IMG/VR virus record: IMGVR_UViG_3300011113_000465
Coordinates: 1-23,114 of that record
Reading direction: 5' to 3' (one strand)
Length of the DNA stretch: 23,114 bases
Source: a virus
The notes beneath the pieces were generated by a model. That model did no database searches. It was not told the DNA's origin and was given only the letters and a program-made list of their open reading frames with translations. Positions 4,704 to 14,499 of the stretch are shown here, one piece after another. Numbering within the stretch: the stretch's first letter is position 1; the number at the start of each line of letters is the position of its first letter. The position numbers were made by a program, and so were the translations under genes.

Positions 4704-5543
4704 TTATCGTGGCGCAAATTCTTGTTGCAGTTTGATATTGTCCATAAACTCTTTTTTGGTTGCAGGATCAGTACGGAACGCACCCTTGAGCACCGTGGTT
4801 TGAGTCAAACTTGAATGTGCCATGATTCCGCGATTCTCACAGCAACCATGTGTGGCTTGTATATACACACCAATATTCTCTGAATCAGTAGCACGACTTA
4901 TTTCTCTCGCGATGTCGTTGCATAGTTCTTCCTGTAGAGTACCGCGACGAGCACACCACTGAGCAATCCTAGTGTACTTAGATAAGCCAATAAGTTTTTG
5001 GGCAGCAATAATACCAATGTAAGCAACACCAGATACAGGCTGATGATGGTGACTACACATACTACGCAATTCACTACGTACAACAAGCATGCCTTCATAT
5101 CGGTCCTCACTATCGTTGGGAAAAGCCGTGGCATCGGGTCGGGGTTCATACCGGCCTACCATGATTTCATTGAAATACATCTTGGCCAGCCTACGTGCGG
5201 TGCCTGCACTGTTGGGATCTGTTTCTCTATCAATTAATAGTGTATCTAGAACTTTTTCAAATGCCTGAGTGGCTTCGTCGATCAACTGCTCACGTTCACG
5301 TTCAGTTTCGATAAACTCACTGATGTTGTCTCCGGCCCAGAATCGTTTACCGCTGGCCCGCATGCTGTCTCGGATGACCTGGCTCAGTGGGCGACCTTCG
5401 TCAGGATCTACTACAGCATCCTCATAACCAGGATGATATGGCGCCTCTGCCACAATACGGCTTTGTTGCAAGGCATCGAATGTTTTTTGGCTGGCATTAT
5501 TTTTCACTGCGTTCTCTCTGTCTTCACTTGTAAATGTTGTCAT
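4704..5543 (-). CDS. folE: GTP cyclohydrolase I (FolE)
   Basis: FolE converts GTP to 7,8-dihydroneopterin triphosphate, the first step for folate and for 7-deazaguanine (queuosine or archaeosine type) bases. The zinc ligands are readable: C163 and H166 in SMCSHHHQPVSG, and C234 in THGCCENRG. The upstream helix DPNSAGTARRLAKMYF also matches the family. At 279 aa it is longer than the E. coli enzyme (about 222 aa) because of an N-terminal extension of some 80 residues of unknown role. The ATG has an AGGA site five bases upstream. The gene is separated from the QueD-like and TGT-like genes by the sugar cassette and may have its own promoter (5555-5582). The neighbourhood favours deazaguanine synthesis; the DfrB homologue also allows a folate role. 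Confidence 0.93.
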   Translation of the reverse strand: MTTFTSEDRENAVKNNASQKTFDALQQSRIVAEAPYHPGYEDAVVDPDEGRPLSQVIRDSMRASGKRFWAGDNISEFIETEREREQLIDEATQAFEKVLDTLLIDRETDPNSAGTARRLAKMYFNEIMVGRYEPRPDATAFPNDSEDRYEGMLVVRSELRSMCSHHHQPVSGVAYIGIIAAQKLIGLSKYTRIAQWCARRGTLQEELCNDIAREISRATDSENIGVYIQATHGCCENRGIMAHSSLTQTTVLKGAFRTDPATKKEFMDNIKLQQEFAPR

Positions 5544-9048: not shown

Positions 9049-10256
9049 ATTTTATCCAATTTTTTAACTGCATACTTGGCCTGACTTACATGATCTCTAT
9101 AGCGATTGCCAGCACGATTCCACTGTTCGCCCGAGCCTTCAAGTATGTCCACGATACGATCCACGGTGCCGTCGGTCCAGTCACTAATCAATCCTTGATT
9201 GTGATGTGCTTGGTCCAACAAGTTTTCTAACTTGTGGAAGGCATCATCAATGCTCCAAGGAACGTACAGACGATTAGGATCGTCAGCAAAGGTTTCAGGG
9301 AAACTGCGATAAGCAGGATATAACACGTTGCAACCAAGAGTATCGGCTTCTGATACTGTGTTAGATACCCAGTCTTGTAAAGCACAATTAAACAGCACAC
9401 GAGTATCGTTGACAAGAGCGTAGTAATCATTTTTCTTCAAGTTTTCGTAGATTTTGAGTCGGCCTTGATTTTCCAACTCTCTGGCCCGCAGGATATAACG
9501 CACATTGTTGCTACGCAATGGGCCACCTTGGAACACAGCAAACTCAATGTTGTCTCGATGATGACCTTGTGCCAGATACATTTCAATCAAGTCCATGTAA
9601 AAGTCTGGTTGTTTCTCTTGATCAAATCTTGCAGCAAAGCCCACACGCATGGTTCTATCTGCGAAAGGTTTGATATTAGACGCTCCGCCAATGCGTTCTA
9701 GCACTTCCTGTTTGCCAAACGCCAGGCCCGAGATGTTGTAGATGGGGGCAGTCCAACCTGCGATGCGCATGTGGGCAACCATTTCTTCGTTGGTGGCTAG
9801 GACACCTGTTACAAATTGGTTAACCATCTTTTCATATGTCGACATCCACTCCGCCATGCCCCAAACATGAACGAAATCATCAGGATCAATGGCTTGAGCA
9901 AGACAACGTACATAAATGCGAGGACGCTGAGACTCAGGCACTTGATCCAGAATATAAGGCAAGCTCTCGATACCGGGCTGAAACATGTCTTCAAAGTAGA
10001 TAATATCTTCATTGGTGACTTCTCCATTACGCATCATTTGCACCAGATTCATCATCTGGCTCATGCTAAAGTAACTACGACCATGTGCGTCTAACACTTG
10101 ACCCACGCTGATGCTTTGAGTGTTGTCAATGGTGGATCCAGGCACATAGACCACGTCAAGACCTCGACGATCAAATACTCTACGGTTCCATTCTGTAAGT
10201 TGTAGTGTGTATCGGGCTTCGTAACTCTCGAGACCCATGTAGAACAGTCGTCTCAT
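9045..10256 (-). CDS. Phage glycosyltransferase, GT-B type
   Basis: The start is set at ATG 10256-10254 (403 aa), because it overlaps the previous stop as ATGA and begins directly with MRRLFYMGLESYEARYTLQ; a 12-residue upstream extension is not supported. The protein has the shape of a two-domain GT-B enzyme: an N-terminal half ending near VLATNEEMVAHMRIAGW, then a linker and a C-terminal nucleotide-sugar domain with MRVGFAARFDQEKQPDFYMDL and a late VSEADTLGCNVLYPAYRSFPE, where the Glu-rich acceptor loop of GT4-like enzymes lies. Similar proteins occur in many T4-like environmental phages. It probably transfers the sugar made by the downstream genes; the acceptor (modified DNA base, virion protein or host glycan) is unknown. 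An earlier homologue of T4 DNA glucosyltransferases is not visible. Confidence 0.7.
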   Translation of the reverse strand: MRRLFYMGLESYEARYTLQLTEWNRRVFDRRGLDVVYVPGSTIDNTQSISVGQVLDAHGRSYFSMSQMMNLVQMMRNGEVTNEDIIYFEDMFQPGIESLPYILDQVPESQRPRIYVRCLAQAIDPDDFVHVWGMAEWMSTYEKMVNQFVTGVLATNEEMVAHMRIAGWTAPIYNISGLAFGKQEVLERIGGASNIKPFADRTMRVGFAARFDQEKQPDFYMDLIEMYLAQGHHRDNIEFAVFQGGPLRSNNVRYILRARELENQGRLKIYENLKKNDYYALVNDTRVLFNCALQDWVSNTVSEADTLGCNVLYPAYRSFPETFADDPNRLYVPWSIDDAFHKLENLLDQAHHNQGLISDWTDGTVDRIVDILEGSGEQWNRAGNRYRDHVSQAKYAVKKLDKI

Positions 10257-10474
10257 ATGTTGCGTCCCAGTCTGCGGGCATCTTCCACCCACATGTTCTT
10301 GGCATTTTTGCCTTGGCTAAATTTGTTGTACTGTTGCCAGGCATAGGCCTTGAAGTTGAATAGATCTTCCTCGCGGAATCTGTAGCCATAATCTGCACAG
10401 AATTCTCTAAAGCGATCTAGTTCATCCATGATCTGGATGGCTCTGGGATTGGGACGATACTCACGCTTGCCCAT
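10253..10474 (-). CDS. Small conserved-looking hypothetical protein (73 aa)
   Basis: A 73-residue basic, largely helical protein rich in aromatic and charged residues (for example YGYRFREEDLFNFKAYAWQ). The start ATG has an AGGA ribosome site seven bases upstream (AAAGGAAATAAC before ATG), and the stop overlaps the glycosyltransferase start as ATGA, so it is very likely translated. No domain is recognised. It sits between the QueD-like gene and the sugar cassette and may be an accessory to either. Confidence 0.7.
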   Translation of the reverse strand: MGKREYRPNPRAIQIMDELDRFREFCADYGYRFREEDLFNFKAYAWQQYNKFSQGKNAKNMWVEDARRLGRNI

Positions 10475-10485
10475 GTTATTTCCTT

Positions 10486-10935
10486 TTAAATTTTGATTGA
10501 TTGATAAGGGCGAGAAGTTTCATACTTGATAAGGCAACCGTTCTCGCCATCTTCGGCTACCTCAATCCATACAGCACGCTCAGGATAACGTGCAGCTATC
10601 TGTGTATATAGGTCATCTGCGATCATCTCGCAACTTTTCCAGTCTAGTGCTAGAACGGAACTTTGACCATTATACAACGACTCGAGCCATCGCTTGAACT
10701 GGATGAATTCAATGTCTCGGTCATTGTGCCACACATCGATCCACACCCGGAAATGAAAAATGTGCCTATGAGGACTAGCAAGAAACGATACATCATACTC
10801 TCCTGCTGTATTTAACCGGGGATCTGTGGCTGCCGCTGGGTAGCAATGGATTCCTTCCTTGCGGAACGTGACCCAGATCTTGCGTTCTGCGGCTTCTCGT
10901 ATACGTTCTATGGTTTCTCTTTCGCTTTGTATCAT
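10486..10935 (-). CDS. queD: QueD/6-pyruvoyl-tetrahydropterin synthase-like phage protein
   Basis: A 149-residue protein of a phage branch of the T-fold PTPS/QueD family. QueD turns dihydroneopterin triphosphate (the FolE product) into 6-carboxy-tetrahydropterin. Candidate zinc ligands are H30 in KEGIHCYPAAA and the cluster PHRHIFHF (H56, H58, H61). The C-terminal part has SCEMIADDLYTQ and WIEVAEDGENGCLIKYE, which align in pattern with the C-terminal acidic residue and active-site strand of QueD. The canonical C-x3-HGH signature is replaced, so a diverged or different reaction is possible. It overlaps the 75-aa gene by ATGA. With FolE and the TGT-like gene it supports a 7-deazaguanine pathway. 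Confidence 0.65.
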   Translation of the reverse strand: MIQSERETIERIREAAERKIWVTFRKEGIHCYPAAATDPRLNTAGEYDVSFLASPHRHIFHFRVWIDVWHNDRDIEFIQFKRWLESLYNGQSSVLALDWKSCEMIADDLYTQIAARYPERAVWIEVAEDGENGCLIKYETSRPYQSIKI

Positions 10936-11159
10936 AGTGCGTTCCTCATTTCACGGATCCACTCATCCACACGAGTCTCAGCTTCCTTCTGGCTTATGGC
11001 CGGTACCGTGATACGGTATGGAGTGCCTGGTCGGTGACGGATGTCATAGCGTATGACACCATCCAGGATCATGTCGTTTTCATCTCGCAACACTGTAAAC
11101 TCTTGCAAGTTCATGGCACGATAAATCAGTTGTTCTGCTTGTTGTTTTACATCATTCAT
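10932..11159 (-). CDS. Small hypothetical protein (75 aa)
   Basis: A 75-residue acidic/basic mixed protein with an N-terminal helix, a predicted strand pair (FTVLRDENDMILDGVIRYDI) and a C-terminal helix (EAETRVDEWIREMRNAL). It overlaps both neighbours by four bases (ATGA at each end), so it is embedded in the coupled operon between the 171-aa gene and the QueD-like gene. I do not recognise the family. Context suggests a helper in base modification, but nothing in the sequence proves it. Confidence 0.68.
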   Translation of the reverse strand: MNDVKQQAEQLIYRAMNLQEFTVLRDENDMILDGVIRYDIRHRPGTPYRITVPAISQKEAETRVDEWIREMRNAL

Positions 11160-11671
11160 TTGAGCACCTCATCTTGGGTATATTTAGACCAGTCGGTGAA
11201 CACCGACCTCCTTTGTAAAGCATGTAGGCTGTGACACCACACTCCGGGGTTAGTGGCTTGAAAGTCTCGATCATCCAGTTTGAGTATGGCATTGTAACCA
11301 AACTGTCTGATGTAAGGTAGCTTAACACTGATCATGGGTATAAAGCGATGCAGTTCGACTAGACTGCTTTCCAGCAAACCCTCGGCACAGCTCACATCCA
11401 GATCCAAGGTGCACCAAAATCCTGCATCAAGACAGTCAGTGATCATGGTCTCCCATGGTTGCCAACCATTGCCGTCGTCGACCTCTAGTTTAGGAAAGCT
11501 TTGATTGGCACCACAGTATATGTGTGTACAGGCATGTCGCCGTGCTTCTGCGATGATGTCTGTTGAATCCTGAACACCTATCACAAACAGGGTTCGTTGT
11601 CCAAATGCTGGTGAGTGTTCTACTTCAGTTCCTACAAACATGCTGACTGCTTCGTGGCCATCTCGATTCAT
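11156..11671 (-). CDS. Conserved T4-like phage protein of unknown function (171 aa)
   Basis: The start is placed at ATG 11671-11669, which overlaps the dfrB-like stop as ATGA; two earlier in-frame ATGs would overlap more. The 171-residue protein has conserved-looking segments [47 protein letters not shown] and [12 protein letters not shown]. It resembles from memory an unnamed family seen in marine and freshwater T4-like phages near folE and queD-like genes; I cannot confirm this by search. There are five cysteines but no CxxxCxxC, so it is not a radical-SAM QueE. Paired EVEH, D-L-D and H motifs could bind a metal. Its position between DfrB/TGT-like and QueD-like genes makes it a candidate missing step in the deazaguanine route. 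Confidence 0.72.
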
Positions 11672-11853
11672 TTGCATGGCGTCCACAGTTCCAGGGCCTT
11701 GGCTGGATAGATTTGAACTGACCCTTTCTCAGTCCAGCTTTCTACTGCGTAGCCTTCTGGTGTGAGTTCAGTGCTGTAAGTGCCTACAACAGTTCCATGC
11801 CATTGGCTGCCGGAGACTTTTTTAACAATATCGCCAAGTTTGAATTTGTTCAT
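11668..11853 (-). CDS. dfrB: R67-type (DfrB) dihydrofolate reductase homologue
   Basis: A 61-residue SH3-like protein that matches the plasmid-borne type II dihydrofolate reductases (R67, DfrB) along nearly its whole core: [14 protein letters not shown], then [10 protein letters not shown], then GSVQIYP and ALE. In R67 the active-site residues are K32, V66, Q67, I68 and Y69; the equivalents here are K12, V46, Q47, I48 and Y49, all kept. The disordered N-terminal 20 residues of R67 are absent, which R67 tolerates. R67 works as a tetramer with one central pore and reduces dihydrofolate to tetrahydrofolate with NADPH, and is naturally insensitive to trimethoprim. The ATG overlaps the TGT-like stop as TAATG. 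It may reduce folate made during infection or a pterin of the local pathway. Confidence 0.88.
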
Positions 11854-13427
11854 TATCGTGCTTGTTCATGTTCGAGTTGATCTAATCGGGCCTGTTGGTC
11901 CGGGCTAAAGTCTTGTTCTAATTGTACACTATCTTCATCTGCTTCGTCAACAGTTTCGAACAAGGCATTGAACTGGCTGTGGGCATTCTTGGCCTTTTTG
12001 CCTTTGAATCCACGTGTACCCACAATGTCCATCCAATAACGGTCATAGTGTTCGATGATGGCTTCTGCTTCGGCTCGGTCTGGCGTGGCAAATATGGCAT
12101 CCACAATGTCTTTGAATCGAGCATGGTCGCCATTTTGATTCCACATCATGGCCGGCCATGAACCCGAATCATATTCGAGATTGGCACGTTGTACTGCTTC
12201 GATGTGCATCCACACATTGTGCCCCATTAACAGAGCATAGCTGAAACTGTCCCACGACGTCTTGCCTTCCTTGCCGATCTTGTTGAGATCACCTGGTTTG
12301 TAGATACAGATGTCCTTCATCTGTAGTTGCTGGCTGATTGGACTTTCATCAAAGTGATTGATCAAGCCGTCGGCAATCACAGCAGGACCAAACTGGCGTG
12401 TGTCTGTGGCATACTTCTTGTCATCTACAATAGGGCTCATACGATAACACCACTTTTCGTTGTGTGGCAAATCAATGTGATGATATACCTGTCCGTTGGC
12501 CGTGGCCAAGAACGGTGACGCACAGTCAAAGCTGATGGTGAAACTTGGATTCACGTACTTGCGAACAGCACGTTGGATATCAGTTAATAATACTGCCCAC
12601 TCTAGTTTACTTGTGCCCAAGAAGTGCATCCAATCATGTACGCCTTCTTGTAACAAGCCGTCATGTCTTAGTGCTACAAGTCGTTTAAGCACCAAGTGTA
12701 CGTCACACATGTTTTGCCCACCCATACTCCAACCATCAAAGTGTGTGTCTGGATATATCTTGGGATCGCAATAGTGCTTCATGATGTCATACCAACGGTC
12801 TGCGTCGGCATGATTGGCACCCTGCAATACATTCAAAAACTTGGCACCACCATTCTTCACACCCTTGCGATGTTTCATAAAGTAGTCATTGTTGAACTTG
12901 GTGGCATCTACAGCTTCTTCAAGTGTGGTGATCTGGCAAGCCGCTGATGCTTTTTTGTCGTGTATAACCCAGGTTGGAATATCCAGGATCATGCCATAGT
13001 CGGCAATACTATCCAACCATTTAAGAACCATTTCACGTTTCTTCTGTGCCTTGGGGCAACCCGAGTTGGCCTTCCAATCACCTTCCCACAGGCCCTTGGC
13101 GATCTGGAATCCACCCGAATCACCCAATATCAGTGTGCCGGGCTCACGGTTACGCACCATGTCTTCCGACCAGTCTTGCTTGTTCAAATCCAGGTTGGCA
13201 TGGCCGCCTGAGTAAAGTGACCATTTGTAAGGGAAAAGACCTTTCTGGCTATTGAGCCAGTTCATCTGTTCCATGTCCTGTATGCCTGCGGGCATCCTAG
13301 CCGGGTCCACATAAGGACCTGCCACAGGATCTCTTTGCTTGCCTACGAATGTGGCATAGAATCCACTTATGGCCGGCAGGAATACAGCATAGTCATTCTG
13401 CTTGGCAGTTAGATTATCTTGTGTCAT
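11853..13427 (-). CDS. dpdA: tRNA-guanine-transglycosylase superfamily protein, DpdA-like
   Basis: The start is set at ATG 13427-13425 (524 aa) because it forms an ATGA overlap with the membrane-protein stop. TGT-family motifs appear in order: [14 protein letters not shown] (D103, equivalent to the general-base Asp in TDSGGFQ), [15 protein letters not shown] (equivalent to the VQGG region), GWSMGG (232-237, equivalent to GGLAVGE), [13 protein letters not shown], and [15 protein letters not shown], where D301 aligns with the nucleophile Asp of FDCVxPTR. The C-terminal CxCxxC zinc site of bacterial TGT is not seen. DpdA is the phage and genomic-island branch that exchanges guanine in DNA for 7-deazaguanine. 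FolE and a QueD-like gene nearby favour this over a tRNA role, but the DNA substrate is inference. Confidence 0.78.
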
Positions 13428-13777
13428 TTTGTCAAATGTTGTGCTAACACCATGCAACTGATCCATACCCAGATAGTATTAAATCCTACCAAGGTTGGCA
13501 GTAGTTTTTTATTGCTGGCCCATATTAGCGTAAGACTAGTGCCAAGGGTCAAAAAAAACAACCACCATATTGAAATACCAAATATCAAGCCAGGAACGAT
13601 GATGATCGCTTTGGCTACCCAGCTGAAAAATTCTACAGTATTGTAGTCAGTCCAGTATTCTTTTGTAAACCACATGCTATAACATTCTTTGATTTTGTCC
13701 CATCGAGAATGTGAATACACTATTACAATAAGAAAAACAAAAGCAATATTCGCTGACGCAATTTGTGTGAATGTCAT
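13424..13777 (-). CDS. Small integral membrane protein (117 aa)
   Basis: A 117-residue protein with three or four membrane segments: residues 6-22 (IASANIAFVFLIVIVYS starts at 6), a long hydrophobic region from about 49 to 87 rich in I, L, F and W, and a final segment near 94-112. The loop in between contains SRWDKIKECYSMWF. Its ATG overlaps the clamp stop (TAATG), and its stop overlaps the start chosen for the TGT-like gene as ATGA. No family is recognised. It stands between a core replication gene and the base-modification block; an inner-membrane role during infection is possible. Confidence 0.65.
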   Translation of the reverse strand: MTFTQIASANIAFVFLIVIVYSHSRWDKIKECYSMWFTKEYWTDYNTVEFFSWVAKAIIIVPGLIFGISIWWLFFLTLGTSLTLIWASNKKLLPTLVGFNTIWVWISCMVLAQHLTK

Positions 13778-14499
13778 TATTTGCTTTGGGCAGGAAGTAT
13801 GTAGTTGTACACAGCCAGACCCGAATCCACGGTAATCTGTGCTGCACCGTCATCACTGATGCGGAATGTCTTGTCACCAGTCAAATCAAGAATACCAATC
13901 ACGGTCTTGATGGGCCATGACCATGCACGCTTGAGTGTACCAGTGACACCGGGATGGAACACAAAGTTGCCGGCATGTGTGCTGTGGTCACCAAAGAAAA
14001 ACTTCAAATCACCGTTTTCTGTCTTGGCTTGGAAGTTGACTTCTTCGGCATTGGCCTGTGCCTGCATCTTGAGTCGCTGTATTGCAGCCACAGTGGGCAC
14101 AAATTCGATGTGCCAGTTTACACCTTTGAATTTCACAGTCTTGAGCTTTTCATTCACAATCTCTGATGCCATGAATCTGTAGTTGTTTTTGAAGTCGCCA
14201 GTGGCGTTGACAAAGTTGATGCCGTCGGGTGCACCAGTGTCTTTGCGAGTTAAACTTAACTGAGCATTTTCCTTGTACTCTTGCAGATTTAATAGGATCT
14301 TCAATTTGCTCAAGTTTGGCATGCCAAACGTGCCAATGAAGTCTGCGTGTGGTTGTGCAAAAGCACCTTCTACTACCACGCTACGATCTTCGGCCAAGCC
14401 GTTGATCACAGTGCTTTTATCGTCGCCGGTGATCTTTACCAGGTCAATGACCCCTAGATCATGTGTGTGTTCTACTAAGTCTAATAAATGGTCTCTCAT
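13777..14499 (-). CDS. 45: Sliding clamp, T4 gp45-like
   Basis: A 240-residue protein matching T4-type gp45 (228 aa). gp45 forms a trimeric ring on DNA, holds the polymerase, and activates late transcription together with gp33 and gp55. Family features include the N-terminal LVKITGDDKSTVINGLAEDRS region, the strand FIGTFGMPNLSKLKILLNL, and the C-terminal DLTGDKTFRISDDGAAQITV followed by LAVYNYILP. The ATG has a strong AAGGAG site, and a promoter (14521-14549) sits just upstream. The 3' end overlaps the membrane-protein gene. Clamp-loader genes 44 and 62, which usually adjoin 45 in T4, are not seen in this window, so the replication genes are in a different order. Confidence 0.85.
   Translation of the reverse strand: MRDHLLDLVEHTHDLGVIDLVKITGDDKSTVINGLAEDRSVVVEGAFAQPHADFIGTFGMPNLSKLKILLNLQEYKENAQLSLTRKDTGAPDGINFVNATGDFKNNYRFMASEIVNEKLKTVKFKGVNWHIEFVPTVAAIQRLKMQAQANAEEVNFQAKTENGDLKFFFGDHSTHAGNFVFHPGVTGTLKRAWSWPIKTVIGILDLTGDKTFRISDDGAAQITVDSGLAVYNYILPAQSK

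Follow-up and report, generated by a model that had tools for sequence, protein, structure and literature searches.

What does a gene for a homolog of R67 (DfrB1) dihydrofolate reductase do among the deazaguanine genes of a phage, and which pterin might its product reduce? The question is raised by a virus fragment of 23,114 bases (here, the window), which derives from a freshwater T4-like phage and displays T4-like features: its DNA polymerase is of family B, and it encodes a DsbA-type regulator. It bears also on the resistance enzymes themselves, as the native role of DfrB proteins has been stated to be unknown (PMC9835603, PMC9774602, PMC11662351).

The gene in question is read from the minus strand (Table 1), the plus strand of the same interval containing no open frame. 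Its 61-aa product matches the Pfam DHFR_2 profile (PF06442) at 4e-21, with 75.1 bits where the gathering threshold is 25, and R67 (PDB 1vie) at 2.5e-16 by phmmer, with 63% identity across the common SH3 core. Alignment to 1vie places R67 numbering 20 positions ahead of that of the window protein, whereby K12, W18, and V46-Q47-I48-Y49 correspond to R67 K32, W38, and V66-Q67-I68-Y69, while W45 and H62 of R67 are replaced by T25 and E42, respectively. The original prediction of an SH3-like DfrB homolog retaining K12 and V46-Q47-I48-Y49 was, therefore, borne out by both the profile score and the R67 alignment. The NCBIfam model trim_DfrB, which represents a 78-aa form, has a curated cut-off of 137 bits, and the window protein falls below it at 84.6 bits; at 61 aa, the protein is devoid of the N-terminal tail.

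Close relatives of the window gene are present in approximately 200 IMG/VR stretches. Among 35 distinct T4-like DfrB sequences, the median pairwise dN/dS is approximately 0.04, with many pairs saturated at synonymous sites, and the codons for K32, V66, Q67, I68, and Y69 display synonymous changes only within the T4-like clade. Because of these relatives, this ratio, and the purely synonymous variation of the pore codons, the window protein is confirmed as a real R67/DfrB homolog, far beyond chance, and its gene is under strong purifying selection. In a set of 110 distinct domain sequences, some from phages and others from alpha-, beta-, and gammaproteobacteria, the residues of the VQIYP motif are invariant, as is W38 of the dimer-dimer interface (110/110), and K32 is kept wherever that position is present. 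Following the addition of eight phage and plasmid sequences, VQIYP was found in 143 of 144 alignment rows, the sole exception being VQVYP. Some of the scans used the pore motif as bait and several sequences were obtained by tblastn without motif selection; those pattern-free tblastn matches in phage records that were inspected kept the motif, with one reading VQVYP.

Table 1. Position of the DfrB gene and of associated genes within the window
Feature	Coordinates	Strand	Evidence or context
DfrB/R67-type SH3-like protein, 61 aa	11668..11853	minus (11853 to 11668)	ATG start, TGA stop; Pfam, phmmer, alignment
TGT-fold protein, 537 aa, GDSGGFQI motif	11853..13466	minus	Directly upstream of DfrB, coupled; AlphaFold and Foldseek
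g11686, conserved protein, no assigned family	11156..11686	minus	Directly after DfrB
Small ORF between g11686 and QueD-fold gene	10932..11159	minus	Weak PHROG match only
QueD/PTPS-fold (T-fold) paralog, 149 aa	10486..10935	minus	Alignment, AlphaFold, Foldseek
FolE, GTP cyclohydrolase I	4704..5543	minus	Pfam PF01227, 4.5e-39; PHROG 2197
PHROG 12062 protein, 240 aa, conserved	13777-14499		Adjacent to DNA polymerase in the majority of these phages

The start codon of DfrB and the stop codon of the TGT-fold gene share bases (TAATG), as do the DfrB stop codon and a start of the following gene (ATGA), and DfrB thus reads as a member of an operon. Sequence-profile searches against the PDB returned nothing for either the TGT-like or the QueD-like protein, so structure was needed to identify both folds. 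The 537-aa upstream product, which has no Pfam, PHROG, or NCBIfam match, was modeled with a pLDDT of 70.5 and gave 18 Foldseek matches with E<0.001, all of them TGTs (best, 7e-8); it is a candidate DpdA2-like DNA transglycosylase based on this predicted structure. For the 149-aa protein (pLDDT, 85.9), the best Foldseek match was E. coli QueD (PDB 4ntk; E, 9e-5; TM score, 0.75 on the target), and H30, H56, and H58 are invariant in the alignment, their equivalence to the zinc ligands being assigned by motif. A QueF-like identity for this paralog was considered and rejected, as QueD matches better in Foldseek and the three histidines are present. It is unlikely to be a canonical QueD, because L52 occupies the position of the catalytic Cys, four residues N-terminal to the leading histidine of the HxH motif, where the alignment revealed no Cys. 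A QueD-fold paralog of this kind, devoid of the catalytic Cys, adjoins a TGT-fold gene in at least 587 IMG/VR stretches. The gene that follows DfrB, g11686, has no Pfam or PHROG match; it was found in 80 of 80 sister loci, often directly after the TGT gene. As regards the conserved PHROG 12062 protein, assignment as a sliding clamp would be a guess.

The claim that the DfrB gene lies in a deazaguanine block with TGT-like and QueD-like genes accordingly stood, given the Foldseek matches to TGTs and to E. coli QueD, and FolE is likewise present in the window. QueE and a canonical QueD are absent from the window and present in related contigs, and QueC is represented by one weak profile match among 14 DfrB phage records. 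Judged from this gene content, the block likely specifies a deazaguanine DNA modification, perhaps 7-carboxy-7-deazaguanine or a product completed via host QueC.

The association extends beyond the window. A TGT, FolE, QueD, or QueE gene was found within 10 kb of DfrB in each of 45 T4-like phage loci, and in 35 of them the closest such gene lay no more than 20 nt away. The nearest deazaguanine gene was FolE upstream in 17 loci, QueD upstream in 13, QueE downstream in 8, and TGT upstream in 7, representing four arrangements in which DfrB follows TGT, FolE, or QueD or precedes QueE. Two FolE types fill the same block, one in the window and the other in loci L031, L065, and others; because the two are only approximately 30% identical, the link between DfrB and FolE survives replacement of the partner. 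These 45 placements belong to one phage group and are not independent samples, and, in most of the loci whose background genes were numerous enough for comparison, 8 to 50% of the other block genes are at an equally short distance from a pathway gene, a share that reaches 71% in single loci.

DfrB is an accessory gene of the block, as just one of the 80 loci in which sister phages have this block harbors it, this one being the contig of a locus (L017) already included in the DfrB set. A second DfrB elsewhere was found in none of 24 longer sister records, a scan run with no positive control, though with the same profile that finds the window gene. The slot after the TGT gene measures at least 60 nt in 42 of 76 sister loci and is occupied by other small genes in many of them; adjacency may, therefore, partly reflect a variable region, since this slot takes other inserts and background genes are also close. 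The link between DfrB and the deazaguanine genes is read as real but moderate, that of an accessory gene settling beside pterin-pathway genes.

That the window protein functions as a DfrB-type reductase is, as a claim by itself, very probable. The pore mechanism of R67 is known and, based on residue conservation, may be applied to the window protein: four SH3-like chains would assemble symmetrically around a pore, within which NADPH would be stacked against a 7,8-dihydropterin, hydride passing to the pterin C6 with no catalytic acid involved. Reduction of the nitrile preQ0 to preQ1 in the manner of QueF was rejected as a role for DfrB, because that chemistry requires a covalent Cys and the pore has none. 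The explanation that we favor, with confidence somewhat above an even chance, is that the protein would function as an NADPH-dependent dihydropterin reductase of the DfrB type, recruited to a deazaguanine operon that consumes pterins, its activity, tetrameric state, use of NADPH, and substrate all being predicted. The phage lineage may have acquired DfrB as an optional metabolic gene and kept it translationally coupled to the 7-deazaguanine DNA-modification genes (FolE, QueD, QueE, and TGT/DpdA-like). There, it would keep pterins reduced, either by regenerating tetrahydrofolate or by restoring the tetrahydro form needed by QueE from a pathway pterin that has become oxidized, for example 6-carboxy-7,8-dihydropterin; dihydrofolate and the pathway pterin are given about equal weight as substrates. 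In favor of this explanation, an ordinary FolA adjoins ThyA, at a distance from the block, in two sister phages devoid of DfrB, whereas neither gene lies near DfrB in any T4-like locus. Against it stand the sister phages, most of which have a working block with no DfrB (79 of the 80 loci and all 24 longer records noted above), together with the variable slot after TGT and the restriction of the placements to one phage group.

A deazaguanine-pathway pterin, for instance 6-carboxy-7,8-dihydropterin, might even be the native substrate, with dihydrofolate reduction a side activity, a tentative proposal that we consider possible though doubtful. The recurrent closeness of DfrB to FolE, QueD, QueE, and TGT in four arrangements is what suggests it, and the invariant K32 would fit a negatively charged ligand; K32 also binds the NADPH phosphate, however, and so says little about the substrate. 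It is also in favor of this proposal that CPH4, on which QueE acts, tends to become oxidized to dihydropterin and pterin forms (PMC11994313). Sister phages nevertheless manage without DfrB, and the same pore is found in DfrB proteins of phages and bacteria whose records show no QueD or FolE. The further proposition that the DfrB-type enzymes of these phages are deazaguanine-pathway dihydropterin reductases, acting on 6-carboxy-7,8-dihydropterin or a dihydroneopterin compound, with dihydrofolate reduction and trimethoprim resistance as side activities, is regarded as unlikely.

Beyond the T4-like group, most phages with DfrB have no deazaguanine neighbors. DfrB was located by tblastn in phages of Rhizobium, Sinorhizobium, Ochrobactrum, Vibrio, Pseudomonas, and Skermania, and QueD was not found in five isolate phage genomes with DfrB. 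No recurrent neighbor family emerged among 50 bacterial DfrB loci. A separate group of stand-alone DfrB relatives of 71 to 87 aa was observed in Bradyrhizobium, Ensifer, Sphingomonas, and Novosphingobium (L206, L207, L210 to L212, L215, and L216).

The phage locus L066 (IMGVR_UViG_3300050010_000571, 9986-11291) bears on a simpler alternative. Here, DfrB shares 8 nt with the beginning of a thymidylate synthase gene and is preceded by a dCMP-deaminase-like gene, and it thus occupies the expected place of a true dihydrofolate reductase (the frd-td place); T4 frd encodes a comparable phage dihydrofolate reductase. DfrB might accordingly be a plain auxiliary dihydrofolate reductase which supplies tetrahydrofolate for phage thymidylate synthesis, its placement in the block being incidental or explained by shared FolE products, and we consider this a serious contender, albeit one falling short of an even chance. 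In line with such a role, none of the 14 DfrB phage records tested contained FolA, as against 2 of 12 sister records, and ThyA occurs somewhere in the genomes of three of the five isolate phages with DfrB. The pairing with ThyA is, however, a single case: DfrB is never close to ThyA in the T4-like group, ThyA was detected in 2 of the 14 DfrB records, most of them fragments, and ThyX in none, while the neighbors QueD, QueE, and TGT play no folate role.

The third alternative dispenses with catalysis and presumes an oligomeric SH3 module which would bind modified DNA or scaffold pathway enzymes, any reductase activity being adventitious. SH3-like folds often bind, and in temperate-phage contigs (L055 to L063 and L067 to L072) DfrB domains with an intact pore motif are joined to a variety of unrelated domains. 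Adventitious activity has, furthermore, been proposed for such proteins as DfrB ancestors (PMC9835603). The invariant residues across phages and bacteria nevertheless belong to the pore rather than the outer surface, and distant homologs are active or confer a phenotype (PMC9835603), rendering this alternative improbable. With the reductase reading retained, 45 loci beside FolE, QueD, QueE, or a TGT-fold gene and one beside thymidylate synthase narrow the role of DfrB to reduced pterins. These gene neighborhoods name substrates that can be tried directly and offer a concrete idea of what DfrB did before antibiotics; were a deazaguanine-pathway pterin the substrate, a resistance oddity would gain a metabolic origin.

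It was further suggested that phages are a reservoir of plasmid-borne DfrB, and this found no support. In trees of 109 and 52 sequences, with the limit of 58 alignment columns, the clinical enzymes group with chromosomal Comamonadaceae genes and the T4-like phage genes form another group. The clade to which DfrB1, DfrB4, and a DfrB9-like allele belong is rich in Comamonadaceae (support, 99/95) and excludes the T4-like phage clade, in which the window gene is placed (94/88). The phylogeny that had been suggested as a check thus places the window gene and the clinical alleles in separate clades, and a phage reservoir for DfrB1/4/9-like alleles was rejected by both of these short-alignment trees, because the clinical alleles group with Burkholderiales. 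A Burkholderiales origin of clinical DfrB has been published (PMC11662351), with which the present trees agree. An unnumbered DfrB relative was additionally observed in a class 1 integron on the Pseudomonas plasmids pTmex-577K (L381, 3962-4267) and p1160-VIM (L382, 3977-4180); reversed relative to its neighbors and annotated in one of the two plasmids only, it shares at most 76% identity with phage sequences and lies outside the DfrB1/4/9-like clade.

Phage DfrB homologs are already known, and it is their deazaguanine context that appears undescribed, our literature search having found no paper linking DfrB to deazaguanine. DfrB homologs have been counted in lytic phages (PMC12466917), and DfrB2-like ORFs were seen in freshwater viral contigs by Moon et al. 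2020 (PMC7265639); these resemble the present case in their freshwater phage source, with 67% identity to DfrB2, but gene neighborhood and function lay outside that study. The phage 7-deazaguanine system outlined in the passages on it in Hutinet et al. 2019 (PMC6884629) comprises FolE-QueD-QueE-QueC-DpdA/DpdA2. The present block has in common with it FolE, QueD, QueE, and a TGT-fold protein, encoded, as they are in Vibrio phage nt-1, by a T4-like phage. It differs in that QueC was found once, and weakly, and in its extra QueD-fold paralog; DfrB is not described in those passages. Relative to R67/DfrB1, the SH3-like core spans nearly the whole window protein with K32, W38, V66, Q67, I68, and Y69 kept, whereas the N-terminal tail of approximately 20 residues is missing and the protein lies outside the clinical/Comamonadaceae clade. 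The closest phage precedents are DfrB-H3, from a Pseudomonas phage, and DfrB-H4, from a Vibrio phage (Lemay-St-Denis et al. 2023; PMC9835603). In the same work, SH3 segments of distant DfrB homologs, one of them from a Vibrio phage, sufficed for a trimethoprim-resistance phenotype, one bacterial homolog was an active dihydrofolate reductase, and W45 was likewise not kept in the tested DfrB-H proteins (PMC9835603). DfrB-H3 and DfrB-H4, together with PHROG 31682, resemble the window protein in being phage encoded, in sharing the pore motif, and in lying near DNA-modification genes; they are, however, multidomain proteins of other phages, whereas the window encodes a stand-alone chain within a deazaguanine operon.
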